Assembly (NCBI GenBank): GCA_934229785.1
Contig: CAKQEA010000026.1
Location: forward strand, 1-24,586
DNA from: an uncultured Anaeroplasmataceae bacterium
GTDB taxonomy: Bacteria; Bacillota_I; Bacilli_A; Acholeplasmatales; Anaeroplasmataceae
Reading direction: 5' to 3'
Length of the DNA stretch: 24,586 bases
In this document: piece after piece, positions 3,956-24,586 of the stretch
How positions within the stretch are numbered: position 1 is the stretch's first letter
Layout: the number at the start of each line of letters is the position of its first letter
Notes under the pieces: model-generated
The model's database searches: none
What the model saw: the letters and a program-made list of their open reading frames with translations, nothing else
Told to the model about the DNA's origin: nothing
Made by a program: the position numbers and the translations under genes

Positions 3956-4720
3956 ATGAATAGTATTCCATATTTTGCAGTTTGTGATGATGATGAAATT
4001 GTTTGTGAGGCAGTTTCAAATAAGGTTAAAAATTATTTTGAGTTGTGTGGAATTGAAGTAAAATTAGAGTTGTTTACTTCAGCAATGAATTTATATGATT
4101 CTATTAAAAAAAATGAAAAGAAATTTGATGCTTTATTTTTAGATATTAGTATGCCTAAATTAAATGGAGTTGAATTGGCTGAAAAGGTTAAAATTTTAAA
4201 TAAAGAAATTGATATTATTTTTATTTCCAGTCGTGAGGATAAAGTATTTGAAACATTCAAGGTATTACCATTTGGTTTTGTTAGAAAAACTAATTTTTCT
4301 AATGATATAATTAATGTACTTAAGCTTTATATTGAAAAAAGAATAATGTCTGATACGTTTATTGCAGTTAAATCTAACAATAATTCTGTTATTCAAAAGG
4401 TTAATGTTAATAGTATTGTTTATATTGAAAGTTTTAGGTATAAGCAGTTTATTTATTTAGAAAATGGTGATGTGATAGAATGCAGGATGACTTTAGAGGA
4501 TTTTGAAAGTAAATTGGCTAAAAATGATATAATTAAGGTATATAAAGGTTATTTAATTAATTTAAAATTTGTTAAAAAAATTGAAAATAAAGGTATAATC
4601 ATGAATTATAATGAGGGAGTATTTATTAGTATTTCTAGAAGTAAGGTTCAAGAAATAAAAACAAAATATCTTAATTACTTAAGAAAAACAGGAACCATTG
4701 TTTTTGAAGAAAATGAATAA
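3956..4720 (+). CDS. LytTR-family response regulator
   Basis: A 254-residue regulator with a receiver domain (about 5-125) and a C-terminal LytTR DNA-binding domain (about 138-243). Receiver residues are intact: the acidic cluster D11-D12-D13, phosphoacceptor D63 in LFLDISMP, S91/S92 at the switch position and K111 in FVRKTNF. The LytTR domain shows the usual pattern around IVYIES, YLENGDVIECRMTL and ISISRSKV. GAGGAG at 3944-3949 lies six bases before the start, which directly abuts the kinase stop. Such regulators bind paired direct repeats upstream of promoters. The nearest candidate target is the long operon starting at 4966, but I found no convincing repeat pair there, so the target is unproven. 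Confidence 0.94.
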   Translation: MNSIPYFAVCDDDEIVCEAVSNKVKNYFELCGIEVKLELFTSAMNLYDSIKKNEKKFDALFLDISMPKLNGVELAEKVKILNKEIDIIFISSREDKVFETFKVLPFGFVRKTNFSNDIINVLKLYIEKRIMSDTFIAVKSNNNSVIQKVNVNSIVYIESFRYKQFIYLENGDVIECRMTLEDFESKLAKNDIIKVYKGYLINLKFVKKIENKGIIMNYNEGVFISISRSKVQEIKTKYLNYLRKTGTIVFEENE

Positions 4721-4910: not shown

Positions 4911-4935
4911 TATATTATACTTGAAAACGATTTCA
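4911..4935 (+). promoter_or_regulatory. Promoter -10 region with overlapping CcpA cre-like operator
   Basis: TTGAAAACGATTTCA at 4921-4935 matches every position of the cre consensus WTGNAANCGNWNNCW, and its arms TGAAA/TTTCA form a palindrome. It abuts or overlaps -10 candidates TATTAT (4913-4918) and TATACT (4916-4921), so a LacI-family repressor bound here would cover the start of transcription. The -35 region is unclear; an 8-T tract occupies 4888-4895. AAGGAGGA at 4951-4958 is the ribosome binding site for ATG 4966. Known biology: CcpA bound at such positions represses carbohydrate genes when preferred sugars are present. A local LacI-type regulator could also use this site. Confidence 0.65.
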
Positions 4936-4965
4936 TCAATTAAAATTAATAAGGAGGACAGAAAG

Positions 4966-8991: not shown

Positions 8992-8996
8992 TAATT

Positions 8997-9025
8997 AAAT
9001 AAAACTTTTTAATAAGGTTTTATTT
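8997..9025 (+). repeat. AT-rich inverted repeat after the first GH3 gene
   Basis: AAATAAAAC (8997-9005) and GTTTTATTT (9017-9025) are perfect complements around an 11-nt loop, six bases after the stop. The right arm is T-rich, so it could be a weak terminator or partial attenuator, but it has only one G-C pair and no long T run after it. Confidence 0.45.
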
Positions 9026-9035
9026 AGGCTAATAT

Positions 9036-9082
9036 TACAAGAAAGGGTACACAGCAAAATTAATAGTGTACCCAATCTTGTA
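9036..9082 (+). repeat. Long imperfect hairpin before the lipoprotein gene
   Basis: TACAAGA (9036-9042) pairs with TCTTGTA (9076-9082), and GGGTACAC (9045-9052) pairs with GTGTACCC (9066-9073). The two stems are separated by an AA/AA internal loop and close on a 13-nt A-rich loop. No T tract follows, so it is not a typical terminator. It ends about 15 bases before the ribosome binding site of the next gene. It could be an RNA stability or processing element, or an operator. Confidence 0.6.
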
Positions 9083-9110
9083 TTAAGAGATTTTAGAAAA
9101 GGTGATATTT

Positions 9111-10232: not shown

Positions 10233-10249
10233 TAGAAGGGGATGATTAT

Positions 10250-10729
10250 ATGGATAGAGTAAAGATTTTTTTAAGAGAAAGAAGCTTAGGATTTTATTTA
10301 GCATTTCCTGCTATGATAATTGCTCTTATTACAATTTTTCTCTATAAAAAAATAGGTATTAATACATTCAGTCCTACTTTAAATAAGCAAGCAATTTTGT
10401 TTTTGATTTTAGGAATTTCATTTACATTAGTTAGTTTAGTGATTAGTCTAATTCCAATTAAATATGTAAATCGATTCGGAAAAATAATTCGCTTTGGTGC
10501 TTATCTAATGATTTTATATGCTTTTATTATGTTTATTTATTCTCAAGTTAATTTTATTGCAAATGTTTTTGTTGGAATTGATGGAAATTCATTTTCTTCA
10601 ACTTTTATTTTAACAATTATATTCTATCTTTTATCTTGTGTTCTAACTGCAGTGTCAGCTGGATTAGATAATTTTATTCCATGGAAGAAAAATATGGTTG
10701 CGGTAGGTGAGATTAATGAAAATAAATAA
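10250..10729 (+). CDS. Small four-helix membrane protein of unknown function
   Basis: 159 residues with four clear hydrophobic segments (about 13-31, 46-68, 79-97 and 119-142) and short charged ends. I do not recognise a family. GAAGGGGATG just upstream gives a good ribosome binding site. It sits 17 bp after the lipoprotein gene, and its last 14 bases overlap the start of the second GH3 gene, so it is translationally coupled to it. This suggests it works with that membrane-anchored enzyme, perhaps in membrane placement or assembly, but nothing in the sequence shows a catalytic role. Confidence 0.85.
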   Translation: MDRVKIFLRERSLGFYLAFPAMIIALITIFLYKKIGINTFSPTLNKQAILFLILGISFTLVSLVISLIPIKYVNRFGKIIRFGAYLMILYAFIMFIYSQVNFIANVFVGIDGNSFSSTFILTIIFYLLSCVLTAVSAGLDNFIPWKKNMVAVGEINENK

Positions 10730-13607
10730 ATTATTTAAAAAGGTACTATGGGAATCATTATTAGTAACATCATCAAGCTTTTGTGTATTAAGCCTTGGTG
10801 TGACTAAGATTGCTGATAGTAAAAGTGGAACTATTAATGATGCGTTAGGTATTTCAAATTCAAATATTGATCGTAGTGATGATCCTCAATATCAATATTT
10901 TAAAAGAACATATTTGGATGATGATTATGAATCTTTAAAGAGAGAATATATTAATATTGCTGAAGAAGTAGAAAGTGAAGGTATCGTATTATTAAAAAAT
11001 AAAAATAATGCGTTGCCTTTAAAGAAAGATGAGAAAGTTAGCTTAATGCTATCAGGCTCATATTATTTTAGTTATTCATCTAGTGGTTCATCAAATGTTG
11101 ATTCATCAGCATATAAAACACTTAAATCATCACTAGAGGATGAGAATTTAAGTGTTAATGAAGCAATGTGGAATTATTATTCTAATGTTAATAAAAGAAC
11201 AACAACTAAAATTAATGATGCTAAATGGGATGATATTTCACAAGATGTTAAGAATACATTGTCTGAATATAAAACTGCCATTGTAACTATATCACGTAAT
11301 AGTGGAGAGGGCTCGGATGTAAGAGCTTATGGAAGTGATGGAAGTGATGGATCATATTTATCACTAAATAGTAATGAATTATCAGTATTGAAGGGTTTAT
11401 CAGAATTAAAAAAATCTAATACTATTTCTAAAATCGTTGTGCTATTAAATTCAAGTGCAACTATTCAATTAGATTTTTTAAATGATAGTGATATTGATAT
11501 TGATGCTTGTTTGTGGGTTGGTAATGTTGGAACTGGTATAGGTGGTGTTTCAAAGGTTTTAACTGGAGAGGTTAATCCTAGTGGTAAATTATCAGATACC
11601 TATGTTTTTAATAATTTTTCATCTCCGGCAGCTCAAAATCTTTATTTGGCTAAAAACAAAAAATTTTCACAGGTTTATGATAGTTCTTATGATTTAGTAG
11701 AAACTAGCAATTATTATGGTATCTATAATGAAGGTATTTATGTTGGATATCGCTATTATGAAACTCGTTATTTTGATTATGTGACTGAAAGAGAAAATAC
11801 AGGAAGCTACGATTATTCTTCTGATGTTGCTTATCCATTTGGCTATGGTTTAAGCTATACTAGTTTTGAATATTCAAATTATAGCGTTGTGGAAAAAAAT
11901 AATGATTATGAGGTATCCGTTACTGTTAAAAATGTAGGTGATGTTAGCGGTCGCGAGACTGTAGAGGTATATTTGCAAAAACCATATACTGATTATGATA
12001 TTGAAAATGGTATTGAAAAATCTGCTGTAGAGCTTGTTGGCTATGATAAAACAAAGCTTCTTGCCTCTGGTGAATCTCAAGATGTAAAAATTACTATTAA
12101 TAAGGAACGCTTTAAAAGCTATGATGCAAATAAGGCAAAAACTTATATTATCGAAAATGGTAATTATTATTTAACTGTTGCTAATGGTGCACATGAGGCT
12201 AATAATAACATATTAGCTAAAATTGGAAAAAATACAAGTAATACTAGTGGAAGAATGGATAAAAATGGAAATAGCAATCTTGTGTCTGATGCTTTAAATA
12301 TTACAAATGCACTTGATGTTACAACTTATTCTAAGTCTTCCTATACTGGAAATAGTATTACAAATCAATTGGATTTTGCGGATATTAATAAATATGATGG
12401 CGCAACAAATAAAACACAATACGTTTCTAGAAGTAATTGGGAAAAAACATTTCCAACTATTGTTGATAGTATAAAAGTTACAGAAAAAATGTATAAGGAT
12501 TTACAATATAATAAAGAAATTAAGCAAAATTTAAATGCTAAATCTAATGTTTATAATCAAAGTAAAACTATATCTTTAGTCCAATTACGTAATAAAGCAT
12601 ATGATGATGAGTTATGGGATGTGCTTTTAAACCAAATGTCATATGATGATCAGGTAACATTAATTACTCAAGGATATTTTACAACTTCTTTAATTGCATC
12701 AGTTGGTAAACCTGATACAAGAGAATCAGATGGTCCAACAGGTGTTGTTGGTTCTAAGGGAAGCTTATCACTACCAAGTGAAGGAATTTGGGCTTCTTCA
12801 TTCAATGATGAATTGATTAAAAAGGTTGGAGATATTTTAGCTGAGGACGCTTTAGCTAATGGAAAAACTGGAATATATGCTAATGGTATAAATATACATA
12901 GAATGCCATTTGGTGGTAGAAGCCATGAGTATTTTTCAGAGGATCCATATTTAACAGGTATGGCTGCCATTGCTGAAATAACAGGAATTCAAAATAAAGG
13001 AGTTATTGCTCATGTTAAGCACATTGCGTTTAATGATCAAGAGGATGCTAGAAATGGTATTAGTATTTGGCTAAATGAGCAGGAGGCTCGTGAAATAATG
13101 CTATTGCCATTTGAGTTTGCTTTATCAAGTGCTGATGGTATGGGTAACGCTCATGCGGTAATGAGTGCATTTAATAGAGTAGGTACCGTTTGGGCTGGGG
13201 CTTGTAATGAGTTATTAAATAATATAATGCGAGATGAATGGGGCTTTGATGGTTATTGTATTACAGATATGGCTGAATCTAATGGTGATTTTATGACATA
13301 TCATGATGGTATTCCTAATGGTACAGACCTATATTTAGGCAATACTCGTGAAGGCGGATTAGCAAGTTACCAATCAAATGAAACATTTACAACTGCAATG
13401 CGTGAAGCATGTCATAGGATTTTATATGTAGTTTGTAATTATAGTGCAGCAATGAATGGTATTAATGAAAATACAATAATTGGTCCTAAAAATCCCTGGT
13501 GGAAAACTACATTAACTGCAATTGAAATAACAACTGGTACTTTAACTGCTTTATTTTTAGCTATGTATATAGCATCTATAGTATGGGAGGATAAAAAAGA
13601 AGCTTAA
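10716..13607 (+). CDS. Membrane-anchored permuted glycoside hydrolase family 3 protein
   Basis: 963 residues from ATG 10716, preceded by AGGTGAG; the frame opens earlier at GTG 10707 but that start lacks a binding site. Order: N-terminal membrane helix (about 9-31), GH3 alpha/beta sandwich (about 75-300), fibronectin-III domain (about 390-500), GH3 TIM barrel (about 630-920), C-terminal membrane helix (about 930-955) and a charged tail. The order is permuted as in the 4966 gene. Catalytic features look standard: D672-G-P, the motif GRSHEYFSEDP, K768-H769, probable nucleophile D851 in CITDMAE and probable acid/base E198 in GEGSD. It should act on beta-linked glycosides outside the membrane, with both ends anchored. 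It is clearly related to the 4966 product but lacks its Ig-like and coiled-coil parts. Confidence 0.93.
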   Translation: MKINKLFKKVLWESLLVTSSSFCVLSLGVTKIADSKSGTINDALGISNSNIDRSDDPQYQYFKRTYLDDDYESLKREYINIAEEVESEGIVLLKNKNNALPLKKDEKVSLMLSGSYYFSYSSSGSSNVDSSAYKTLKSSLEDENLSVNEAMWNYYSNVNKRTTTKINDAKWDDISQDVKNTLSEYKTAIVTISRNSGEGSDVRAYGSDGSDGSYLSLNSNELSVLKGLSELKKSNTISKIVVLLNSSATIQLDFLNDSDIDIDACLWVGNVGTGIGGVSKVLTGEVNPSGKLSDTYVFNNFSSPAAQNLYLAKNKKFSQVYDSSYDLVETSNYYGIYNEGIYVGYRYYETRYFDYVTERENTGSYDYSSDVAYPFGYGLSYTSFEYSNYSVVEKNNDYEVSVTVKNVGDVSGRETVEVYLQKPYTDYDIENGIEKSAVELVGYDKTKLLASGESQDVKITINKERFKSYDANKAKTYIIENGNYYLTVANGAHEANNNILAKIGKNTSNTSGRMDKNGNSNLVSDALNITNALDVTTYSKSSYTGNSITNQLDFADINKYDGATNKTQYVSRSNWEKTFPTIVDSIKVTEKMYKDLQYNKEIKQNLNAKSNVYNQSKTISLVQLRNKAYDDELWDVLLNQMSYDDQVTLITQGYFTTSLIASVGKPDTRESDGPTGVVGSKGSLSLPSEGIWASSFNDELIKKVGDILAEDALANGKTGIYANGINIHRMPFGGRSHEYFSEDPYLTGMAAIAEITGIQNKGVIAHVKHIAFNDQEDARNGISIWLNEQEAREIMLLPFEFALSSADGMGNAHAVMSAFNRVGTVWAGACNELLNNIMRDEWGFDGYCITDMAESNGDFMTYHDGIPNGTDLYLGNTREGGLASYQSNETFTTAMREACHRILYVVCNYSAAMNGINENTIIGPKNPWWKTTLTAIEITTGTLTALFLAMYIASIVWEDKKEA

Positions 13608-13656
13608 CTGTAGATATATTATTAATTGTTTATAAATCAAGAGAGGGGCAAGAATC

Positions 13657-15087
13657 ATGTATAAAAATATTATTAAAAAAGTAATTGTTTTTCTCATTTT
13701 TCTCCTTTTTCCATTTGTGATTCTTGTCTCTTTTGATTTATCCATTAAAAATCAATATGGTGAAATTTATCATGCTGAATTATCAAATATGTATGATAGA
13801 TTAAAAAAAATAGATAGTAAAAAAATAGTAATAATAGGTAATTCTAATGTTGCCTTTGGTGTGGATTCTAAACTTTTTGAGGAATTGATTAATGATTCTA
13901 TAGACTACTCAGTAGTTAATTTTGGATTGTATGGTAGTATAGGAACTAAAGCTATGCTAGATTTAGCTCAAAAATATATTAATAAGGATGACATAGTTAT
14001 TCTTATTCCTGAGGAGTATAGTCAATCTATGAGCTTATATTTTTCAGCAACTGAATTTTGGTATGCTCTTGATAGTAACAAAAAAATGTTTAATGATTTA
14101 GATTCCAGATCAAAAGAAGCATTAGCTGGTAATTATTTTGATTATGTTTCAAAAAAATTTATATCCTCTAAAAATAACAATAATTATAAGTTAGGTGTAT
14201 ATTCAGTATTCTCTTTTAATGATAGATGTGATATGACTTATGAAAGAGAATATAATATTATGTTTAATGATTATGATGAAAATAATCTAATCAATTTGTC
14301 AAACTTAATTGATGATAGCTTTATCAATTATATTAATGAGTATAATGCTGGTATTTTAAAAAAGGGAGCTAAAATGTATTATTCATTTTCACCAATGAAT
14401 AAAGAGGCTATTGTTAATGATAAAGAAGAAATAGATGAATTTTATAAAACTTTAAGAAAAAAGTTAAACTTTCCAATAATAAGTGACATAAATAGATATA
14501 TTATGGATAAGGAATGGTTTTATGATTCTAATTATCATTTAAATACAAGTGGAATGAAGGTACGAACTGCTTTCCTGGTTGATGATTTAAAAAATGAGTT
14601 GGGTATAACTTCTAAAAATAATTTCATTATGATTGAAAAACCAGTAAAACCTCAAGATGGCATTGAGGGTGAAGGCGATAATAGCTGTAGCGATTGTTTT
14701 ATTTATGAAAAGAATGGTAATTATTATAAAATAATTGGTTTAACAGAAGAAGGTTTAGCTAAGGAAGAATTAATTATTCCCTATCAGGTTAATGGAATAT
14801 ATGTTAATGAATTTACTAAGGATGTATTTAGCTATGACAAAAATATTAAAAGAATTGTAATTCAGAAAAATATAAAAAGAATATATGATAATAGTTTTTA
14901 TGGCTGTGAAAAATTAAGTGGTATATATTTAGAACATGATAGTCCTTCTATGATTTCTGTTGGATTTAATTTATTAGTGGGCACTATGGGAAATATTTAT
15001 GTTGATAATAAAATAAAATCAAGCTTTATTAATGATTATTTCTTTGGTGCTTACCAAGAAAGGATCTATGGCTATGAAAAGAATTAA
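13657..15087 (+). CDS. DltD/AlgJ-like SGNH acyltransferase-hydrolase with C-terminal BspA-type LRR domain
   Basis: 476 residues. One N-terminal membrane helix (about 7-27) places the rest outside the cell. The SGNH-type domain (about 56-312) has block I GNSNVAFG with nucleophile S63, a later FGLYG block, a SFSPMN motif and the C-terminal block YDSNYHLN with D290 and H294. These are features of the DltD/AlgJ-like proteins that move acyl groups onto or off cell-surface polymers in partnership with an MBOAT protein. Residues about 345-470 form LRR_5 (BspA-like) repeats, shown by IIPYQVNGIYV and IKRIYDNSFYGCEKL, which usually mediate binding. GAGAGGGG at 13641-13648 is the ribosome binding site. 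A 14-base overlap with the next gene indicates coupling. Confidence 0.8.
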   Translation: MYKNIIKKVIVFLIFLLFPFVILVSFDLSIKNQYGEIYHAELSNMYDRLKKIDSKKIVIIGNSNVAFGVDSKLFEELINDSIDYSVVNFGLYGSIGTKAMLDLAQKYINKDDIVILIPEEYSQSMSLYFSATEFWYALDSNKKMFNDLDSRSKEALAGNYFDYVSKKFISSKNNNNYKLGVYSVFSFNDRCDMTYEREYNIMFNDYDENNLINLSNLIDDSFINYINEYNAGILKKGAKMYYSFSPMNKEAIVNDKEEIDEFYKTLRKKLNFPIISDINRYIMDKEWFYDSNYHLNTSGMKVRTAFLVDDLKNELGITSKNNFIMIEKPVKPQDGIEGEGDNSCSDCFIYEKNGNYYKIIGLTEEGLAKEELIIPYQVNGIYVNEFTKDVFSYDKNIKRIVIQKNIKRIYDNSFYGCEKLSGIYLEHDSPSMISVGFNLLVGTMGNIYVDNKIKSSFINDYFFGAYQERIYGYEKN

Positions 15088-16870
15088 AACTTTTTTAATA
15101 ATTATTTTATTATTACTTCTTTGTAGTTGTAGTGATAGTAATACATATGATTCAAACAAGGTTAGAGTAAGTGTAATTGATAGTGATTTTTTTATTTGCA
15201 CAAATAATAGTGAATTAATTGATGTTGATTCAGATTTTCAAACTACATTAATAATGAGAGATGGATATGACATAGATTTTTGCAGTTATGAAAATTATAT
15301 TTTGAATAAAATCTCTACAAATACTTATTTGCTGACATTAAAAAATGTTGATAAACCTGTCAGAGTTAAAATTAATTCTTATCGAAAGGATGGCTTTAAA
15401 ACTGAAAATGAGTCATTTGAAACGATGGTTAAATATAATTTTAATGATGGAACAGATAGATATGAAATAAAAAAATATAAGTTATCATATCACATTAGAC
15501 AAAATACTTGGACAGCTATTGATTTAAAACGAGATGGATATACATTAAATGGCTGGAATACAAAAGAAGATCTATCAGGTGAGCATATTGGCTTAGGTAG
15601 TAGAGTAAGTGTTAATAAGGATGATACTTTACAGTTATATGCTGAATGGGTAAAGTGGACTGATGCTGATATGTTTTTATATCAAAGAAATATTGATGAC
15701 ACCATAAGCCTAACTGGCTATAGAGGTAGTGGGGATGATGAATATATTTGTTTGCCAGAGTCTATAAACGGCTATAAAGTAACAAAAGTTGCAAACTCTT
15801 TTACAACAAATATATTATGTGGAAAAATAACTTCAAAAACTTTAATTATTCCTAATACAATTAATTTGATTGAGGATTATGCTTTTACAAATAGTTGTTT
15901 TGATAATATTTATTTTAGTGATAATTTAACATTTAGTAGCTATAAATGTTTTAACTATAATATTAAGCATTATTTCTTAAATGCATATTCAAATCCTAAA
16001 TTGCAAAAAAATAATTATAATGTACGCTTTGCAGATAACATTGATTTATTAATTAAATATCAAAACGAAAATAAAATTGTTTTATATGGTGGTTGTAATT
16101 TAGCATATGGAATATATAGTCCAATGATTGAAAAAGAATTCTCCTCCTATAAGGTAATTAATTGTGGCTTAAATGGAGAATTTAATTCTTTATTTCAAAT
16201 GGAAATTATCGAAAATTATCTTAATAAAAATGATATATTTATTCATTCACCAGAGCAAATGAACGGCTATCAATTTATGAACAAGCTATTAGTCGATAGT
16301 AGAATTTTTGCGATGGTTGAGGGGAATTATGATTTATTTTCAATAGCTGATTTTTCATATTCGCCATTTATTATTGAAGCTTATTTAGATTATAACAAGC
16401 TTAGAGAAAAAAATGATGATTGTTCATATGAGGATAATCCCCTTATGTTTAATACCTATGGAGATTATTTAGAAGATAGAAATTATTATGAGACTAATGA
16501 ATTAAATAGAGACAAATCATATACAGAAAATTGGAAATATGACCTAGGTGTTTTAAAGAAAGATAACATTTCACTTTTAGGTAGAAAATATAATGATATT
16601 TCAAATAAGGGTGTTAAGGTTTATTTTACTCATTCACCAATGAATGAAAATTCAGAGGAGGAAGAAGTAATATATGATAAAGCAAATGAATTTGAGCAAA
16701 CCCTAAGACAAGTATTAGATGGTTATAATGTCACTATTATTTCAAAGATAGATGATTATATTTTTAAAGGTCGTTATTTTTTTGATACAGATTATCATCT
16801 TAATTTTTATGGGGCAGAGCTTAGAACAGAAAAGTTAATTAATGATTTAAAAATGGTAGGTGTTAAATAG
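15074..16870 (+). CDS. Lipoprotein with InlB repeat, LRR_5 repeats and an SGNH-like domain carrying Cys in place of Ser
   Basis: 598 residues from ATG 15074, chosen because AAAGGA (15059-15064) suits it and because it gives a compact lipoprotein signal ending LCSC (C19). In-frame ATGs at 15032 and 15068 are less suitable. Order: unassigned region (20-115), one InlB B-repeat (about 118-192), LRR_5-like repeats (about 195-320) and an SGNH-type domain (about 335-598). Block I reads GGCNLAYG, so the nucleophile position is C341 (codon TGT at 16094), not serine. CGLNG, SPMN and FFDTDYHLN (D571, H575) remain. It is paralogous to the preceding protein, with binding domains at the other end. It may be a thiol-based acyl transferase, or an inactive partner or receptor. 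It overlaps the preceding gene by 14 bases. Confidence 0.78.
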   Translation: MKRIKTFLIIILLLLLCSCSDSNTYDSNKVRVSVIDSDFFICTNNSELIDVDSDFQTTLIMRDGYDIDFCSYENYILNKISTNTYLLTLKNVDKPVRVKINSYRKDGFKTENESFETMVKYNFNDGTDRYEIKKYKLSYHIRQNTWTAIDLKRDGYTLNGWNTKEDLSGEHIGLGSRVSVNKDDTLQLYAEWVKWTDADMFLYQRNIDDTISLTGYRGSGDDEYICLPESINGYKVTKVANSFTTNILCGKITSKTLIIPNTINLIEDYAFTNSCFDNIYFSDNLTFSSYKCFNYNIKHYFLNAYSNPKLQKNNYNVRFADNIDLLIKYQNENKIVLYGGCNLAYGIYSPMIEKEFSSYKVINCGLNGEFNSLFQMEIIENYLNKNDIFIHSPEQMNGYQFMNKLLVDSRIFAMVEGNYDLFSIADFSYSPFIIEAYLDYNKLREKNDDCSYEDNPLMFNTYGDYLEDRNYYETNELNRDKSYTENWKYDLGVLKKDNISLLGRKYNDISNKGVKVYFTHSPMNENSEEEEVIYDKANEFEQTLRQVLDGYNVTIISKIDDYIFKGRYFFDTDYHLNFYGAELRTEKLINDLKMVGVK

Positions 16871-16871
16871 A

Positions 16872-17123
16872 ATGAATGATTTCTTTTGTAATAGTTTTAT
16901 TTGCACATACATTTACCTAGTTATTTTAAATTTATTGATTTTTTCAATATTTATTAAAAAATATAAGAAGTATTTTTTAATGATTGCTTTAGCATTATTT
17001 GTTATTGATATTTCATATTTAATGTTATTAGGCTTTAACTTAGAAAAATGTGCAATTGTCTGCGGTGTATGTGTTATTTTAACTTTAATTTCGATAAAAG
17101 AAGGTAGAGATAATGAACTTTAA
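16872..17123 (+). CDS. Small membrane protein within the acylation cassette
   Basis: 83 residues from ATG 16872, with AGGTG at 16858-16862 as ribosome binding site; the frame extends back to GTG 16860. It has two to three hydrophobic segments (about 9-29, 34-54 and 60-75) and a charged C-terminus. I do not recognise a family. It sits between the SGNH genes and the MBOAT gene and overlaps the latter by 11 bases. Dlt operons also encode a small membrane protein, DltX, but DltX is shorter, has a single helix and ends in an aromatic motif that this protein lacks. A helper or subunit of the MBOAT complex is plausible but unproven. Confidence 0.75.
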   Translation: MNDFFCNSFICTYIYLVILNLLIFSIFIKKYKKYFLMIALALFVIDISYLMLLGFNLEKCAIVCGVCVILTLISIKEGRDNEL

Positions 17124-18582
17124 TTCCCTTATCTTTTTGATATTTTTGTTGGTTGTTGTTGTATTGTATTGGATTATTCCTCATAAATATCGTTATATTT
17201 TATTGTTAATTGCTTCATATATATTTTATATGTGTTGGAATGTTAAGCTTATTTTATTGATAGCCTTTACAACGTTATTAACCTATTTAACTGGTTTGTT
17301 AATTGAAAAGACTAATAATAAAAAGCTTAAGAAAATATATTTAATTATTACTTTAATTTGTTGTTTAGGATTACTGATGTTCTTTAAATATTTTAATTTT
17401 TTATATAATAGTATTATTAATTTTATTAATTTATTTAAAGTAAATGCTTCAAATCATACTTTCGATATTATATTACCTGTTGGAATTTCTTTTTATACAT
17501 TTCAAACACTATCCTATGTGATTGATGTTTATAAAGGAAGGTGTGTGGCAGAGAGAAATATAGCGTACTATGCATTATTTGTTTCATTTTTTCCTCAATT
17601 AGTGGCAGGACCGATTGAAAGACCAGCTGACTTAATTCCTCAGCTTAAAAGTAAGAAAAAGATATGTTTAAATAATTTTATAGTTGGGTTTAAATATATA
17701 ATTATTGGCTTTGTAAGAAAATGCTGTATTGCTGATTTATGTGGAATTTATGTTGATAATGTTTTTATGAATTTAGGCTCTAGTAATTCATTTGCTATAT
17801 TAGTTGCTGGATTTTTGTTTTTAATTCAAATTTATAATGATTTTGCAGGGTACTCTGAAATTGCTCTTGGTACTGCTAAATTGTTAGGAATAGATTTATC
17901 GGTTAATTTTAATTTTCCGTTATTATCAAAAAGTTATACTGAATTTTTTAGAAGGTGGCATATAACCTTAAATAGATGGTTTATCGATTATGTGTATATT
18001 CCTTTAGGTGGTAATAGGAAGGGTGTTGTAAGGAAAGTATTAAATACTATGATTGTGTTTTTATTATGTGGTTTGTGGCATGGTGCTAATTGGACATTTA
18101 TTTTATGGGGATTAGTGGCAGGCATTATGATAAATATTGAAACTTTGCTTAAAAAGCCTATTTTAGCATTATGCGATAAGTTACATATTAATCCTAGAAG
18201 TAGAGAGATTTCTATTTTAAGAAATATTTTTATGATATTTTTGTTTAGCTTAAGCTGTATTTTATTTAGAGCACAGTCATTAACTGACATAGCTATTGCC
18301 TTTGGTAATATATTTACCAAGATTGGATTTAGTATTAATTATTTTAAAGAAGGATTTAAAAGTTTAGGATTGAACATTATTGATTTAATGTATATAGCTA
18401 TTGCCATTGTGATAATGTGTTTATTAAAAATTTTATATAATAATAATTTCGTTGTTGAGATAAGAAAATCAAATTATAGTTATCTTGTTTTGTCTGTTTT
18501 TGTTGTACTTTTAATTGTTTTTTGCTGGTTATATGCATATTCATTAACAGATTCAAGTGGCTTTCAATATTTTCAGTTTTAG
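17113..18582 (+). CDS. MBOAT family membrane O-acyltransferase (DltB/AlgI-like)
   Basis: 489 residues with about ten membrane helices. MBOAT hallmarks are clear: the cytoplasmic-loop motif PQLVAGPIERP, EFFRRWHITLNRWFIDYVY with H283, IPLGGNR, and the catalytic histidine H323 in CGLWHGANW. Members transfer an acyl group from a cytoplasmic donor across or within the membrane to an acceptor. With a DltD- or AlgJ-like partner they acylate teichoic acids or exopolysaccharides. The protein ends GFQYFQF (483-489), close to the aromatic F-x-Y-x-x-F type C-terminus known from DltX, as though that function were fused here. The gene overlaps the preceding gene by 11 bases, and the binding site for the next gene overlaps its stop codon. 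Confidence 0.93.
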   Translation: MNFNSLIFLIFLLVVVVLYWIIPHKYRYILLLIASYIFYMCWNVKLILLIAFTTLLTYLTGLLIEKTNNKKLKKIYLIITLICCLGLLMFFKYFNFLYNSIINFINLFKVNASNHTFDIILPVGISFYTFQTLSYVIDVYKGRCVAERNIAYYALFVSFFPQLVAGPIERPADLIPQLKSKKKICLNNFIVGFKYIIIGFVRKCCIADLCGIYVDNVFMNLGSSNSFAILVAGFLFLIQIYNDFAGYSEIALGTAKLLGIDLSVNFNFPLLSKSYTEFFRRWHITLNRWFIDYVYIPLGGNRKGVVRKVLNTMIVFLLCGLWHGANWTFILWGLVAGIMINIETLLKKPILALCDKLHINPRSREISILRNIFMIFLFSLSCILFRAQSLTDIAIAFGNIFTKIGFSINYFKEGFKSLGLNIIDLMYIAIAIVIMCLLKILYNNNFVVEIRKSNYSYLVLSVFVVLLIVFCWLYAYSLTDSSGFQYFQF

Positions 18583-18591
18583 GAGGATTAT

Positions 18592-19965
18592 ATGGAAATA
18601 AGTAAAAAATTAACTTTTCAGCTTTTAGAGGCTTTTGTAAAAGCAAATCCTGATTTTGTTTTTTTAGAAAATGATGAAGAAACCTATACAATTAGTGAAT
18701 TTTTGAATACTATTTGTAATACTGCAAATTTGCTTTCAAGAAATGGGGTAAAAAAGGGGGATATAGTTTCAATTCTTTGTAAAAAGGATATTGCAACTAT
18801 AATTTATTTGTTTGCCTGTCAAATGATGGGTGCTGTGGCTCTTATGGTTGATAAGAGTCAAAATATAGAAGAATTAGAACGTGAAAATGCCTTTAAGGTA
18901 AAGTATCGTGTAATTGAAAATCGAGAGGTAAAAAAGACTTTTATTTTTCCTATGATTAGCTATGATGTTTGGTATGATAGTAAGGATACGACTATTGCTA
19001 TTGCAACATCTGGATCTACAGGAGAAAGAAAAATTGTTAAGCTTAGTCAATATGCTTTTATAAATAATGCCTTTGATTCTGCTTTGTTTGGTGGTTATTC
19101 TTTAGATGATGTAGCTTTAGCTTTTTTGCCTTTAAATCATGTTTTTGCAATTGCGATGTTGTTTACAGCTATATGCTTTCATTTTAAGGTTGTAGTAGCG
19201 AAAGATTCTGATATATCTACACTTCTTCAATGTGTTGAAAAATATCAGGTTACTAGATTTAATGGTGTGCCTTCTATATTTTTAAAGATGGTTGAGTTAA
19301 AGGATAATTATAATCTATCATCTTTAAAATGCGCTTATATAGGAGGTGCCTCATGTAGTTATAATGATTATTTAAAAATTGAAAAAAATTTAGGGATTAA
19401 GCTAATTTGTGTTTATGGTATGACGGAATGCATAGGAATAAGTACTGGCTCGTTTGCTGATGATAGTATATTATTAGCTAATTCGGTTGGAAGGATATAT
19501 CCTTATAACGATGTTAAAATAGCTACAGATGGTGAGATAATGGTTAAAGGACCGTCAATGTGTAATGGTTATTATAAGGGTGAACTATTACTTAAGGATG
19601 GATATTTATTAACAGGTGATATTGGTAAAATTGAAAATGGCTTTTTACATATTGAAGGAAGAAAAAAAGAGATAATTATTCGTAATGGAGTTAATATTTC
19701 TATTAATGAAATTGAAAATAAACTAAGTAATATTGCTGTATTTAAATCTTATGCAGTAGTTGCAATTAATGACAAAGAAACAGGAGAGGCTCCAGCTTTA
19801 GTTGCTGTTTTAAATAAAAAGATAAGTGAAAATGAAGTTTATATTGAATTAGAAAAATATTTAAATAAATTTGAAATGCCTAAAAAAATATTATATATTG
19901 ATGCGATTCCTTTATTAGATAATGGAAAAATTGACAAAAGTACGATTAAAAAACTATTCATCTAG
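18592..19965 (+). CDS. AMP-forming acyl ligase (ANL superfamily, DltA- or acyl-CoA synthetase-like)
   Basis: 457 residues, short for the superfamily. Conserved sites are visible: the nucleotide loop ATSGSTGERK (from about residue 139), YGMTE, the hinge region LLTGDIGK then EGRKKEIIIRNGVNIS, and the C-terminal catalytic lysine K446 in LLDNGKIDKS. Enzymes of this group activate a carboxylic acid as acyl-AMP and load it onto CoA, a carrier protein or another thiol. The N-terminal third is diverged. No membrane segment or signal is present, so it is cytosolic. AGGAGG overlaps the preceding stop codon. Placement straight after the MBOAT gene parallels dltA with dltB and suggests it supplies the acyl group. 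Which acid is used, and which thiol accepts it, cannot be read here; no carrier protein gene is present. Confidence 0.88.
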   Translation: MEISKKLTFQLLEAFVKANPDFVFLENDEETYTISEFLNTICNTANLLSRNGVKKGDIVSILCKKDIATIIYLFACQMMGAVALMVDKSQNIEELERENAFKVKYRVIENREVKKTFIFPMISYDVWYDSKDTTIAIATSGSTGERKIVKLSQYAFINNAFDSALFGGYSLDDVALAFLPLNHVFAIAMLFTAICFHFKVVVAKDSDISTLLQCVEKYQVTRFNGVPSIFLKMVELKDNYNLSSLKCAYIGGASCSYNDYLKIEKNLGIKLICVYGMTECIGISTGSFADDSILLANSVGRIYPYNDVKIATDGEIMVKGPSMCNGYYKGELLLKDGYLLTGDIGKIENGFLHIEGRKKEIIIRNGVNISINEIENKLSNIAVFKSYAVVAINDKETGEAPALVAVLNKKISENEVYIELEKYLNKFEMPKKILYIDAIPLLDNGKIDKSTIKKLFI

Positions 19966-19994
19966 TAGATATAATGGTTAAAAGAGGTAGAAAC

Positions 19995-22457
19995 ATGAAA
20001 TACAAGGAAATTATTGATAAATTAACAATTAGACAAAAATGTGATTTACTAACAGGTAGAGATTTTTGGAGCACTTTAGAAATTAAGGATTTAGATATTC
20101 CTTCAGCTTTTTTATCAGATGGTCCTCACGGATTAAGAAAGCAAGCTGCCGCTTCAGATCATTTAGGTTTAAATGCAAGTATTCCAGCGACTTGCTTTCC
20201 AACAGCTGCAACAATTGCCAATAGTTTTAACTTAGAACTAGGTGAAAGAATTGGTCAGGCATTAGCTATGGAAGCGATAAGTATGGATGTTAATATGATT
20301 TTAGGTCCAGGAACAAATATTAAAAGAAATCCATTATGCGGTAGAAATTTTGAATATTTTTCAGAGGATCCATACCTATCTGGTAAAATGGCTGCCTCCT
20401 ATATTAGTGGTATTCAGTCTAAGGGAATATATGCTTGTGTAAAGCATTTTGCTGGCAATAATCAGGAATTAAGAAGAATGACAGTTAATAGTGAAATTGA
20501 TGAAAGAGCATTAAGAGAAATTTATTTAATGCCATTTGAATTGGCTGTCAAGGACGGACATGCAAAAGGAATTATGTCATCTTATAATCGAATTAATGGT
20601 GAATATGCAAATGAGTCAATCTATCTTTTAAAAAAAGTATTAAGAGATGAATGGGGCTTTGATGGTATTGTGGTGTCAGATTGGGGTGGCTGTAATGATA
20701 GGGTTTTAGGTGTAATAGCTGGCTCTGATTTGGAAATGCCTTCGTGTAAATATGGCTCTGATGATATTTATAAAGCTTTAACTGATGGCTGGGAAAATCC
20801 TTATAGTAAGGCTGATAATGAAAAATACATGGAAATACAAAGGTGTATTATTAATGGAAAGCTTGATATTAAATTAGTTGATGAGTGCTGTGATAGAATC
20901 CTTAATTTTATTTTTGAAACAAATAAGAATATTAAGAAGAATAAAGTGGTATTTGATAAAAATCTTCATCATAATTTAGCCTATCAAGCAGCAGTTGAAA
21001 GTATTGTCTTACTTAAAAATAATGATGCCTTGCCTTTAGGTAAAGAGAAGGTATGCTTTATTGGTGATTTTTGCAAAAATCCAAGATATCAAGGTGCTGG
21101 GTCTTCTGTAGTTAATCCTTTAAGACTTGATAGTGTTTATGATGAGGTTAAAAATTATGACATTAATTTTGTAGGCTTTGAAAGGGGATTTAATCGTTAT
21201 GGTAAGAATAATAAAAGGCTGTTTAAAAGAGCAATTAGTCTTGCTGAGAAATCAGATAAAATTATATTCTTTATGGGATTAGATGAGGTTTCTGAGGCCG
21301 AAGGCTTAGATAGAACTTCTATTAATATTCCTCTAAATCAGTTGAGATTATTAAAGGCATTACAAAAATTAAATAAAAAGGTGGTTGTTGTTATTTCTGC
21401 AGGCTCATCTACAAATATGGAAGTTATTAATGATAGTGATGCTATTTTGCATAGCTATTTATCTGGAGAAGCTGGGGCTAGAGCTATTTTAGATGTTTTA
21501 ACTGGTAAAGAAAACCCTAGTGGTAAGCTTTCAGAATCGTTTGCAAAAAAATATGAAGACAATTCTTCAAGTAATTACTTCCCAGCACGTCTATCAACAA
21601 GGTATAAGGAAAGTATTTATGTTGGTTATCGTTATTATGATACAAAGAATATAGATGTTACTTATCCATTTGGTTATGGATTAAGCTACACAACATTTAA
21701 ATACTCTAATTTAATTATTGATTCTTCTAAAGTAACCTTTGATATTACAAATACAGGTAAATATAAGGGTAAGGAGGTTGCTGAGCTTTATATTGGCAAA
21801 AAAGATTCTAAGGTTTTTAGAGCTAGCAAGGAGTTAAAGGGTTTTATAAAGATTGAGCTTATGCCTGGTGAAACTAAAACTGTAAGTATTGCATTTGATG
21901 AGTATTCATTTAGAGTATTTAATCCTAAAAAGAATCAGTTTGAAATTGAAAATGGTAAATATGAAATATATATTGGTTCATCTAGTAGAGATATTTTATT
22001 AACAGGTAATGTAAATATAGATGGTGTAGAACTTGATTTTGGCTATAGCAAGGAAATAGAGGAAAAATACAAAAATTGTGATATTACAGATGTTTCTGAT
22101 GAACTTTTTGAAAAATTAATTGGAAGAAAATTAATTACAGATGAATATTCATTCTATAAGAAGAAAAGAATGATTATTTATGAAAATGCAACAGTAGAAG
22201 ATCTAAGATATTCTTGTAGCTTTGTTGGAAGAGCATTTTCAAGAATTATAAGACATCTTATAAAATTTTTAAGAGCCGTTGGAGCTAAAACGACTGCAAA
22301 TACGTTAGTTATGGGAGTACTACATCAGCCAATAAGAGGAATTGCTAAATTTGGTGGATTGAGTCGTAATAAGCTAGAAGGGCTGTTGCTTATTTTTAAT
22401 GGACACTTTTTTAAAGGTATGCATAGGTTTTTAAAAAGAGAAAGAAGGAACAGATAA
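19995..22457 (+). CDS. Cytosolic glycoside hydrolase family 3 enzyme with a basic C-terminal extension
   Basis: 820 residues from ATG 19995, spaced seven bases from AGAGG; ATG 19974 lacks a binding site. Canonical GH3 order here: TIM barrel (about 1-300), alpha/beta sandwich (about 320-520) and fibronectin-III domain (about 570-660). Motifs are complete: SDGPHGLR, GRNFEYFSEDP, KHFAGNNQE, nucleophile D229 in VVSDWGG and probable acid/base E436 in AEGLDR. No signal peptide is seen, so it should be intracellular, hydrolysing imported beta-linked oligosaccharides as a beta-glucosidase or related enzyme. Residues about 690-820 form an extra region rich in Lys and Arg with amphipathic stretches (VGRAFSRIIRHLIKFLRAVG), perhaps a membrane- or partner-binding tail. 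It is followed one base later by the GtrA-like gene. Confidence 0.93.
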   Translation: MKYKEIIDKLTIRQKCDLLTGRDFWSTLEIKDLDIPSAFLSDGPHGLRKQAAASDHLGLNASIPATCFPTAATIANSFNLELGERIGQALAMEAISMDVNMILGPGTNIKRNPLCGRNFEYFSEDPYLSGKMAASYISGIQSKGIYACVKHFAGNNQELRRMTVNSEIDERALREIYLMPFELAVKDGHAKGIMSSYNRINGEYANESIYLLKKVLRDEWGFDGIVVSDWGGCNDRVLGVIAGSDLEMPSCKYGSDDIYKALTDGWENPYSKADNEKYMEIQRCIINGKLDIKLVDECCDRILNFIFETNKNIKKNKVVFDKNLHHNLAYQAAVESIVLLKNNDALPLGKEKVCFIGDFCKNPRYQGAGSSVVNPLRLDSVYDEVKNYDINFVGFERGFNRYGKNNKRLFKRAISLAEKSDKIIFFMGLDEVSEAEGLDRTSINIPLNQLRLLKALQKLNKKVVVVISAGSSTNMEVINDSDAILHSYLSGEAGARAILDVLTGKENPSGKLSESFAKKYEDNSSSNYFPARLSTRYKESIYVGYRYYDTKNIDVTYPFGYGLSYTTFKYSNLIIDSSKVTFDITNTGKYKGKEVAELYIGKKDSKVFRASKELKGFIKIELMPGETKTVSIAFDEYSFRVFNPKKNQFEIENGKYEIYIGSSSRDILLTGNVNIDGVELDFGYSKEIEEKYKNCDITDVSDELFEKLIGRKLITDEYSFYKKKRMIIYENATVEDLRYSCSFVGRAFSRIIRHLIKFLRAVGAKTTANTLVMGVLHQPIRGIAKFGGLSRNKLEGLLLIFNGHFFKGMHRFLKRERRNR

Positions 22458-22458
22458 T

Positions 22459-23436
22459 ATGAATGAAATGGAATTTGAGGTTAAAGAATTTTCAAAAAAT
22501 GCATTTATTGCTTTTTTTCAAAAGATAGGAAGAACATGTTCTTTAATGTGGACAAAGTTTTCAAATAAGCATCCTAAGCTAGCTAAGCTTTTATATGAGT
22601 TTTTTATGTTTTGGATATTTTCAATGATGGTTACAATTTTTCAATATATTGTTATGACATTTTTACCATATGCATTTGGAATTGAGTTGGCAGGAAAGGA
22701 ATTCTTATGGCCAGGTATAACAATTAATATTAAAGGCTATCAACCTTTTAAGTGGAGTATTTTAGGCTATGATGTTCAAATGATTGATGGAGTTGTAAAA
22801 ATAGGAGGCGGCCTAGGCTATTTCATTGCCTATGAATTAGCTACGTTTTTGGCTCAAGTAATTAATTTTCCTCTTCAAAGAAATATAACTTATAAATCAA
22901 AGGGAAATCCTTATTTTCAAGCAATGTGGTTTTTTATTGCATGGGTGTTAATTTCTTTGTTTTGTAATGCAATTACCTCTTTTTGGATTGGTTGGGCTAA
23001 TCAAGTTTTACCTGCAGCCATCTATAGTATTTTAACCACTATTATTACTGGTGGTGTGTCTATGGTTGTGTTTTTCTTTGTAAATAAAATTATTTTTCCA
23101 GATTTACAAAAGGAAAGTGCTAGACTTAATAAAAAGGTTGAGGTATTAAGAAATAAAAATTGCAGTAAAGAAAAATTAGATCAAATGATTGCAAAGGCTT
23201 TAAAGGTTGAACATGCTGCTAAGTTAGAATTAGCAAGAAAAAAGTATTTAAATTTTGATAAAATAGCAAATTCTAAAATTACAAAGTATTATGTCTTTAA
23301 GGATGAATTTGTTCAAACTCCAACTGATGAGAATAGTAAACAATTAAAAATGCTTTATGAAGAGACAAAAAAAGCAGTAGAAGAGAAGAATGAAGCTTTA
23401 AAAGAATATAATTATTTGAAAGGAATGCAACTATGA
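22459..23436 (+). CDS. GtrA-like multispanning membrane protein with a C-terminal coiled coil
   Basis: 325 residues. After a charged N-terminal part there are about four membrane segments (near 45-75, 105-130, 150-175 and 185-215), with the GtrA-type motif AQVINFPLQRNITYKSKGN near 135-150. A long Lys/Glu-rich coiled-coil tail (about 216-325) follows. GtrA proteins are thought to flip or help flip polyprenyl-phosphate-linked sugars for cell-surface glycan modification, usually with a family 2 glycosyltransferase. Here exactly such a gene follows, with an ATGA overlap. Typical GtrA proteins are about 120-150 residues, so the N-terminal and coiled-coil parts are additions. AAGGAAC just upstream is the ribosome binding site. 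Confidence 0.75.
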   Translation: MNEMEFEVKEFSKNAFIAFFQKIGRTCSLMWTKFSNKHPKLAKLLYEFFMFWIFSMMVTIFQYIVMTFLPYAFGIELAGKEFLWPGITINIKGYQPFKWSILGYDVQMIDGVVKIGGGLGYFIAYELATFLAQVINFPLQRNITYKSKGNPYFQAMWFFIAWVLISLFCNAITSFWIGWANQVLPAAIYSILTTIITGGVSMVVFFFVNKIIFPDLQKESARLNKKVEVLRNKNCSKEKLDQMIAKALKVEHAAKLELARKKYLNFDKIANSKITKYYVFKDEFVQTPTDENSKQLKMLYEETKKAVEEKNEALKEYNYLKGMQL

Positions 23437-24461
23437 AGCTAATTTCTTTTACTGTACCTTGTTATAATTCAGAAAAATATATGAAAAAGTGTATTGATTC
23501 ATTGTTAGTTGGTGGTGATGATGTCGAAATAATTATTATTGATGATGGCTCATTTGATAATACTTTAATGATTGCCAATGAATATGTAAAGAAATATCCA
23601 AATATTTGTCGTGCTTGTCATAAGGAAAATGGTGGGCATGGTTCTGGTGTTAATATGGGTATTGAAATGGCAACTGGTTTATATTTTAAGGTTGTAGATT
23701 CAGATGATTACTTACAAAAAGAGGCATTGCTAGAGTTAATTAGGACTATTAGAACGCATATTACTAATAATGAAGAGGCTGATTTATATATTACAAATTT
23801 TATTTATGATAGACAATCTGATAATTCACAATATGTTAGTGAGTACTCAAATAATTTCCCTGTAAGAAGCTTTTTTGGTTGGAGAGATACAAAGCCATTA
23901 AAATTGTGGAAAATGTTACTTATGCATTCTTTGCTTTATAAAACAGAAAAGCTAAGAGAATCAAATACTATTCTACCTAATCATACGTTTTATGTTGATA
24001 ATATCTATGCCTATAAGCCACTTCCTTATATGAAAAAAATATTTTATTTGGATGTTAATTTATACATGTATTATATTGGTCGAGCTGATCAATCGGTTGT
24101 AATAGGTAATATGGTTAAAAGGTATGATCAGCAAATTAGAGTTATGAATATTATGCTATCAGCATACACATATAAAGAAATATGTAATATGGATAAGAAA
24201 TTAAAAAAACAAATGCTTCATATTTTATACGCTATTATGAATAATACTATTTTCTTTACTACTGCTAAAAATTCAAAAGAAAGAAAAGAATTATATTATA
24301 ATATGTGGAATGACTTAAAAAAACGTGATAAAAGACTTTATAATTATTTAAAATATCATACTTCAATAAGTATTTTTAATGTTATTTCTTGGCGTTTAAA
24401 GGGATTTATTTCTACAATTGGTTATAAATTTTTATGTAAGCATATAAAGCTTGGAATGTAA
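23433..24461 (+). CDS. Family 2 glycosyltransferase
   Basis: 342 residues starting directly with a GT-A fold: SFTVPCYNSEKYMKKCIDSL at the N-terminus, nucleotide-binding D37-D38-G39, NGGHGSGVNMGIEMATG, and the metal-binding D89-S90-D91-D92. The C-terminal part (about 200-342) is basic and helical without clear membrane spans, so the enzyme is probably cytosolic and membrane-associated. Family members transfer a sugar from a nucleotide sugar to a glycan, lipid or polyprenyl phosphate. Donor and acceptor are not readable, but the overlapping GtrA-like gene and the neighbouring glf gene suggest surface glycan assembly, possibly with galactofuranose. The start overlaps the preceding stop (ATGA), and the stop lies inside a terminator stem. 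Confidence 0.92.
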   Translation: MKLISFTVPCYNSEKYMKKCIDSLLVGGDDVEIIIIDDGSFDNTLMIANEYVKKYPNICRACHKENGGHGSGVNMGIEMATGLYFKVVDSDDYLQKEALLELIRTIRTHITNNEEADLYITNFIYDRQSDNSQYVSEYSNNFPVRSFFGWRDTKPLKLWKMLLMHSLLYKTEKLRESNTILPNHTFYVDNIYAYKPLPYMKKIFYLDVNLYMYYIGRADQSVVIGNMVKRYDQQIRVMNIMLSAYTYKEICNMDKKLKKQMLHILYAIMNNTIFFTTAKNSKERKELYYNMWNDLKKRDKRLYNYLKYHTSISIFNVISWRLKGFISTIGYKFLCKHIKLGM

Positions 24462-24490
24462 AAAAGGAGCATATTGCTCCTTTTTTACAT
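24456..24490. terminator. Bidirectional terminator shared by the GT2 gene and glf
   Basis: ATGTAAAAAAGGAGCA (24456-24471) and TGCTCCTTTTTTACAT (24475-24490) are a perfect 16-bp inverted repeat around a 3-nt loop. Each strand reads as a GC-containing stem with A residues before and T residues after. The arms contain the last codon (ATG) and stop (TAA) of both convergent genes. Confidence 0.92.
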
Positions 24491-24586
24491 TATTTTTTTA
24501 AGCATTTCGAACGCTGCTATAATAGTATCATCCATATCATAATATTTATAGCCACCAAGTCTTCCACCAAAATAAACATTTGTTTT
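24485..24586 (-). CDS. glf: UDP-galactopyranose mutase, C-terminal end (partial)
   Basis: Reading the minus strand from the right edge gives 33 residues ending at TAA (24487-24485). The sequence NVYFGGRLGGYKYYDMDDTI followed by a short helix is the conserved C-terminal flavin-binding end of UDP-galactopyranose mutase, where R in GGRLG and the YKYYDMD segment are characteristic. This FAD enzyme converts UDP-galactopyranose to UDP-galactofuranose in the cytosol, the donor for galactofuranose-containing surface glycans. The rest of the gene lies beyond the window. It is convergent with the GT2 gene, with only 23 bases between stops. Confidence 0.88.
   Translation of the reverse strand, partial: KTNVYFGGRLGGYKYYDMDDTIIAAFEMLKKIM

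Follow-up and report, generated by a model that had tools for sequence, protein, structure and literature searches.

The stretch of DNA considered here (the window) comprises the whole of the 24,586 nucleotides read from contig CAKQEA010000026.1 (positions 1 to 24,586, forward strand) of assembly GCA_934229785.1, which derives from an uncultured Anaeroplasmataceae bacterium. Within it lie five neighbouring genes that a sequence-only reading had described as a tightly coupled, extracellular acylation cassette resembling the Dlt system, and the corresponding open reading frames (ORFs) do overlap or abut one another, as follows.

13657..15087, + strand: ORF for SGNH1, 476 residues, with an N-terminal membrane helix, an SGNH domain at about residues 36-317 (S63, D290, H294) and a C-terminal LRR_5 region at about 345-476
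15032..16870, + strand: SGNH2, 612 residues, a putative lipoprotein (lipobox LLCSC) with a Listeria-Bacteroides repeat, an LRR_5-like part and a C-terminal SGNH domain bearing Cys355 at the nucleophile position and D585/H589
16860..17123, + strand: small hydrophobic membrane protein, 87 residues, directly upstream of the MBOAT gene and without an acyl-shuttle motif
17113..18582, + strand: MBOAT acyltransferase, 489 residues, His323 (PF03062, E 8.8e-32)
18562..18579, + strand: acyl-shuttle hexapeptide FQYFQF (Tyr486) at the MBOAT C-terminus
18592..19965, + strand: AMP-forming acyl ligase of acyl-CoA-synthetase type, 457 residues, with TSGSTGERK (139-147), His183, the hinge GRKKEIIIRNG and Lys446

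Successive genes overlap by 56, 11 and 11 nucleotides, and a gap of 9 nucleotides separates the MBOAT gene from that of the ligase; the first overlap would be smaller if SGNH2 started at an internal Met ahead of its lipobox. Pfam searches of the window's ORFs gave clear matches not only to the MBOAT family but also to AMP-binding PF00501 (E 1.2e-49) and PF13193, while LRR_5 in SGNH1 and the Listeria-Bacteroides repeat in SGNH2 fell below threshold.

A ligase profile built from 29 relatives (alignment A1) was searched in genome contigs and returned 80 loci, of which 25 were inspected for the cassette. Seventeen had enough flanking sequence and the cassette (L001-L010, L012-L017 and L040); contig ends truncate L011 and L018, and no cassette was seen at L021, L028, L029, L037, L044 and L052, all weaker matches. 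SGNH1, SGNH2, the MBOAT and the ligase occur together in 17/17 of the ligase-found loci with enough flank, their order being shuffled from locus to locus and their genes lying on both strands in L007 and L014, and a small hydrophobic ORF stands directly upstream of the MBOAT gene in 15 of the 17. One carrier of the cassette is a named strain, Blautia schinkii DSM 10518 (L005). A class-wide ligase search of 391 genomes at E 1e-60 matched only G001 itself, and thus nothing from the window's own lineage.

A second sample was gathered by SGNH1 (alignment A2), which lessens the bias of a ligase query, with the profile and search centres still coming from ligase-found loci. Three overlapping genome sets centred on G001 and G006 were searched, 248, 250 and 251 genomes in size and at limits of 1e-20, 1e-40 and 1e-40, giving matches in 9, 14 and 26 genomes respectively. 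Forty wider regions were taken around these matches, 34 of which supplied 36 rows to a tree of MBOAT sequences; those without a row are L195, where the MBOAT next to a ligase is truncated, L202, which lies at a contig end, and L183, L189, L192 and L199, where no MBOAT is seen. In the complete tree of 63 rows, 31 ligase rows and the contig-cut L190 form a 32-row clade (support 83/96, and 100/99 for 31 of its rows) that stands beside ligase-less sisters, and 11 rows of this clade, 10 of them with a ligase, came from the SGNH1 search, in which the ligase was not used. Furthermore, pairwise distances across 29 cassettes are correlated for MBOAT and ligase (r 0.61), MBOAT and SGNH1 (0.72) and ligase and SGNH1 (0.44), and 0 of 2000 permutations were as high for any of the three. 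The clade and the correlated distances argue that the ligase is inherited within this clade as part of the set and is optional in the wider family. The gene set is beyond chance assembly and constitutes a real, conserved and coherent cassette; co-occurrence, tree and covariation alike reject the notion of a stray ligase, and the earlier claim that it is conserved with the MBOAT gene is borne out.

The catalytic His323 of the MBOAT is invariant in 18/18 cassette MBOATs, and all 18 end in F.YF.F. This corresponds to the FXYXXF acyl-shuttle motif described in the excerpted text of PMC12148441, where acyl-coenzyme A (acyl-CoA) is the reported donor for MBOATs that carry the shuttle motif as a fusion; as such, the missing carrier protein is not odd. 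With its invariant His and C-terminal FXYXXF, and with a partner SGNH protein (SGNH1) that has Ser, Asp and His, the pair displays the features of MBOAT-SGNH systems with a fused motif, and the analysis supports the extracellular acylation cassette first proposed. The small membrane protein had been likened to DltX, an assignment that we reject: FXYXXF is absent from the 87-residue protein and from its 15 relatives, and the motif sits on the MBOAT instead. Against the DltB equivalog model (TIGR04091) the window's MBOAT scores 134.9 bits, where the cut-off is 375. The second residue of the hexapeptide is Ile in 0/32 ligase rows and in 13/16 ligase-less rows, a contrast that is not independently replicated, given that the ligase has roughly one origin on the MBOAT tree.

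Among NCBIfam models, the ligase scores best against PRK06187 (240.7 bits, cut-off 476), which is a subfamily of CoA ligases, and against MenE (211.3 bits, cut-off 330.15), and the DltA model is not among the best 25 of its 102 matches. Its alignment to the MenE model spans positions 4-441 of 442, which makes the previous description of the enzyme as short and diverged misleading, and its best PDB sequence match is a 2-succinylbenzoate-CoA ligase (E 3.2e-37). The ANL features TSGSTG, YGM[ST]E, the GR hinge and the C-terminal GK lysine are invariant or nearly so in the 29 rows of A1. For comparison, eight ligases were taken from sister systems; most adjoin a carrier, and one (L105:9013) is related to gramicidin synthase and DltA. 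Where the window's family has His183 (28/29) followed by Val, Ile or Leu, these have Phe-Asp (5/8), Tyr-Ala (2/8) or, in L100, His-Leu; where the family has a near-invariant hinge R-N-G-x-N-[IL]-S, 7/8 of them have G-[YHNK]-R-[IMV]-E. By this A4 pattern and hinge the window's enzyme looks like an acyl-CoA ligase, as opposed to the diverged DltA that had been supposed. Its substrate is probably an acid without an alpha-amino group, and the hinge and A4 type suggest CoA as the acyl acceptor. An amino acid cargo, which the sequence-only reading had entertained, is disfavoured only, since two of the eight comparison ligases likewise lack the Asp.

S63, D290 and H294 of SGNH1 are invariant in 18/18 members, and its nucleophile position is Ser in 66/66 rows. 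At E 0.05 the DltD and DHHW Pfam models matched none of the 18 SGNH1 and 16 SGNH2 members scanned, among which the ALGX model gave a single match (E 0.049). PDB profile searches found no SGNH protein in the best 60 of 156 matches of SGNH1, all of them LRR-type by name or region, or in all 38 matches of SGNH2. Foldseek comparison of AlphaFold models placed DltD (7dxm) first for both SGNH1 (E 7.8e-5) and SGNH2 (E 5.3e-4); by VIA-align, SGNH1 ties with other SGNH folds, with SGNH esterases scoring level with DltD. The conserved residues and the predicted models thus place these proteins firmly in the SGNH superfamily, and less than firmly in the DltD family.

SGNH2 departs from its partner at the nucleophile, which is Cys in 23/30 ligase cassettes and in 1/16 loci with no ligase in view, three of the latter (L172, L186, L187) being contig-cut such that a ligase may be unseen there (Fisher p 5e-6, ignoring kinship). 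The raw counts are 25 Cys, 7 Ser and 1 gap with the ligase, 2 Cys and 15 Ser without it, and 4 Cys and 2 Ser in other loci. The rows excluded from the comparison were L006_19528 (a misaligned ORF), L101_6724 (gap), L103 (the same protein as L014), L190 (a contig-cut member of the ligase clade), L100, L107, L189, L192, L195 and L199. On the MBOAT tree, 48 rows require a minimum of 6 changes between Cys and Ser; the single approximate origin of the ligase on that tree means that the link between Cys and ligase is not independently replicated. It could be that the Cys holds the acyl group as a thioester, and SGNH2 may alternatively serve as a pseudo-enzyme or binding protein.

Each of the 17 cassette genomes encodes at least one PF00550 protein, in none of them on the cassette's own contig. 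The PF00550 search overlooked a carrier-like ORF (L105:8771-9013) and so misses some carriers, for which reason a second profile was built from 13 carriers. At E 10 it found none in 31 ligase-cassette loci (the window and 30 related loci) and recovered 8/8 controls, five of them outside the profile (E 8e-13 to 4e-6), in accord with the earlier statement that no dedicated carrier lies nearby; for the window, this negative covers the window sequence only. In seven genomes only one PF00550 protein was found; read by eye, it adjoins a Tex-like ORF in four (G001, G002, G004, G016) and lies near a PlsX-like ORF in G009, the remaining two being G006 and G012. Ketoacyl synthase (PF00109) has no match in 10/17 cassette genomes, namely those of L001, L002, L004, L006, L007, L008, L013, L014, L015 and L017, all of which keep a carrier; this reflects either an apparent loss of fatty-acid synthesis or gaps in metagenome-assembled genomes.

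The cassette is flanked by genes related to glycans and to regulation, all on the same strand.

2618..3955 and 3956..4720, + strand: GHKL histidine kinase and LytTR response regulator, possible regulators
10707..13607, + strand: membrane-anchored GH3 with domain order C-Fn3-N, the upstream partner of the cassette
19974..22457, + strand: GH3 without an evident signal peptide, 8 nucleotides behind the ligase
22459..23436, + strand: GtrA-like membrane protein (PF04138), 1 nucleotide behind the GH3 gene
23433..24461, + strand: GT2 glycosyltransferase (PF00535), overlapping the GtrA-like gene by 4 nucleotides
24455..24491, + strand: intrinsic-terminator-like hairpin of 17 pairs and a T run behind GT2, a possible operon end

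The short intergenic spacing through GT2 and the hairpin behind it suggest that the cassette is probably cotranscribed with the glycan genes, and the ligase and downstream GH3 genes in particular probably form one transcription unit. The hairpin is the sole + strand site of its kind in 8900-24586; the two terminator-like sites of that span are no excess over a shuffle mean of 3.8. Among the 17 ligase-found loci, a GH3 relative lies within 12 kb in 15 (the exceptions being L001 and L012), a relative of the upstream GH3 within 12 kb of the MBOAT gene in 13, and a kinase and/or regulator relative within the inspected span in 11. Relatives of the downstream GH3 adjoin the cassette in L004, L010, L014, L191 and L201 among others, GtrA-like relatives occur at L010, L014 and L191, and a GT2 relative at L004. 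The glycan-related neighbourhood proposed from the sequence is present. Elsewhere in the window, 4921-8991 encodes another large surface GH3 which, like that at 10707-13607, has the inverted order C-Fn3-N and a C-terminal hydrophobic anchor, and relatives of the two occur at many cassette loci. A Listeria-Bacteroides-repeat protein (9102-10232) and a 159-residue protein with no Pfam match (10250-10729) have relatives at several cassette loci. The span 302-2310 holds a DUF3737 protein and then an aminotransferase, relatives of both being found together in L204 near an MBOAT-SGNH1 pair. A search of the window found no tRNA, and its G+C is 25-33%.

Taken together, we think it somewhat more probable than its alternatives combined that the cassette acylates a surface glycan by the MBOAT-SGNH route, with an acyl-CoA ligase of its own. 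From its family and motifs, the ligase would couple CoA, at the expense of ATP, to an organic acid that probably lacks an alpha-amino group. By analogy with the chemistry of PatA and DltB, and in keeping with the conserved residues, the MBOAT would then move the acyl group by way of His323 from CoA to its own Tyr486 in FQYFQF, on the outer side, and SGNH1 would take it on Ser63 and esterify the surface glycan. The lipoprotein SGNH2, with Cys355, may act as an additional transferase or relay the acyl group as a thioester, and the same-strand GtrA, GT2 and GH3 genes may build or trim the acceptor.

Several observations weigh against this reading. The 36 tree rows from the SGNH1 search divide into 11 with a ligase, 14 with none, 4 of FkbH type (with a carrier) and 7 that are contig-cut; within the regions fetched, a ligase is seen in 0/12 new genomes of the G006 family, and L183, L189, L192 and L199 have SGNH1 with neither MBOAT nor ligase in view. 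L103, whose MBOAT has a ligase nearby, falls outside the ligase clade, and in the alignment the motif His of SGNH2 is not seen in L101, L196 and L197. The surface glycan is suggested as the target by the neighbouring genes only, and the ligase could load an acyl carrier protein (ACP) encoded elsewhere. Last, cassette L100 (6795-11807 of its locus in G011) unites a CoA-ligase-like enzyme, a PP-binding protein, an MBOAT, SGNH1 and SGNH2. In the tree its MBOAT joins two contig-cut rows (84/86), and these sit within a larger set of 8 rows that lack a ligase or are cut (89/95), neither support value earning the tool's star. G011 also has the carrier-less type of cassette; L100 is likely a separate loading module.

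That same cassette, with its ligase and carrier, lends some substance to the idea that the window's ligase loads a housekeeping ACP encoded elsewhere and that acyl-ACP is the MBOAT's donor, as D-Ala-DltC is in Dlt. The PF00550 protein in each of the 17 genomes is in keeping with this, as is its retention in the 10 genomes without evident fatty-acid synthesis. We nonetheless regard it as unlikely: CAT-family acyltransferases adjoin the ligase in four loci, the carriers lie off the cassette contig in 17/17 genomes and escape the profile in all 31 ligase-cassette loci, several of the single ones sit by Tex-like or PlsX-like ORFs, and acyl-CoA is the reported donor for fused-motif MBOATs (PMC12148441, excerpted text).

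Alternatively, the SGNH proteins may be esterases, and the ligase may salvage acids that they and the GH3 enzymes free from plant or host glycans that bear acyl groups, leaving the MBOAT to ordinary acetylation. The several adjoining GH3 genes, the equal VIA-align scores of SGNH esterases and DltD, and the lactate-type MFS transporter beside one ligase would suit such a scheme, but it accounts poorly for an MBOAT, two SGNH proteins and a ligase that are kept together despite shuffled order, for SGNH proteins that both look membrane-bound beside an MBOAT with a shuttle motif, and for the first rank of DltD with both SGNH models, and we consider it improbable. A canonical D-alanylation system whose dltC lies at another place in the genome shares the gross make-up of the gene set and the DltD-like folds; it is disfavoured by model scores and motifs to the point of being very hard to credit. 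The DltA model TIGR01734 is above its cut-off in 0/17 related genomes, though a weaker match exists in 16/17, an outcome in favour of the sequence-only reading, which had named a canonical dltABCD placement as a ground for refutation, and the low DltB score, the lack of DltX and a ligase without the Phe-Asp pattern point the same way.

The favoured reading, acylation from acyl-CoA, draws further support from CAT-family neighbours of the ligase, this being a family that uses acyl-CoA. They are found at L008:9333-9980, L169:4802-5527, L196:6180-6845 (by BLAST only) and L197:13304-13951; the three that were scanned are below the CatA cut-off, and no resistance is implied. An SDR stands beside the ligase in L195 and L103, and an MFS in L170 has a lactate transporter as its nearest model (176.6 bits, cut-off 320). 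From these three loci we would guess that the cargo is a small acid, either hydroxy or monocarboxylic, lactate and 3-hydroxybutyrate being examples. Such hints fail when controls are considered: among the cassettes without a ligase, L171 and L179 have MFS relatives nearby and L185 an SDR relative (24%). None of the three kinds of neighbour was seen in the window.

The same core occurs with no loading module, with a CoA-type ligase or with a ligase and carrier, and distant MBOAT-SGNH kin have FkbH and a carrier, such that acyl identity may be exchanged by swapping the cytoplasmic module. In L174:8915-13748, L188:9173-13818 and L208:1725-6188 an FXYXXF MBOAT, an SGNH1-like protein, a carrier and an FkbH-domain protein lie together, perhaps for glyceryl (FkbH-loaded) envelope acylation as another such module. 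More broadly, we would tentatively entertain, at less than even odds, a distinct envelope chemistry of mostly uncultured Clostridia and their kin, in which the ligase makes a non-acetyl acyl-CoA, the acyl group transits a Tyr, a Cys-type SGNH protein passes it as a thioester to the glycan, and loading modules are swappable.

Among known systems, the alginate proteins AlgI/AlgJ/AlgX resemble the window's cassette in a C-terminal FXYXXF on the MBOAT, a separate SGNH transferase and the absence of a carrier. PatA/PatB peptidoglycan O-acetylation is alike in the same respects, according to the excerpted text of PMC12148441. Both of these use acetyl-CoA and no ligase, whereas here a ligase is conserved, the SGNH proteins are two paralogues that bear LRR_5 and other surface modules (with Cys in most members of one of them), and a small membrane protein is present. 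Dlt (DltA, B, C, D and X) is alike in having its own AMP-forming ligase, an MBOAT and a DltD-like SGNH protein, but here no DltC is nearby, there is no DltX, and ligase and MBOAT are not DltA or DltB by score or motif. MenE- and FadD-type acyl-CoA ligases share the ANL motifs and include the best PDB match, yet the window's ligase is far under the MenE cut-off and sits in an acylation cassette. Our verdict is that the cassette would work like MBOAT-SGNH acyl export and is not a member of Dlt; the Dlt parallel drawn from the sequence holds as a possible mode of working and fails as a statement of membership.

In open-licence PMC literature, searched by titles and abstract openings, we found no MBOAT-SGNH cassette with a CoA-type ligase, and in the MBOAT-SGNH pathways covered by the excerpted text of PMC12148441 the group delivered is either acetyl, drawn from acetyl-CoA, or D-alanine, drawn from a carrier. 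A ligase that is conserved yet has no carrier nearby points to a surface ester that has yet to be described, and to a single export machine loaded in modular fashion, and an SGNH2 with Cys in place of Ser would be an unusual SGNH enzyme. The presence of the cassette in Blautia schinkii makes it testable in a named strain.

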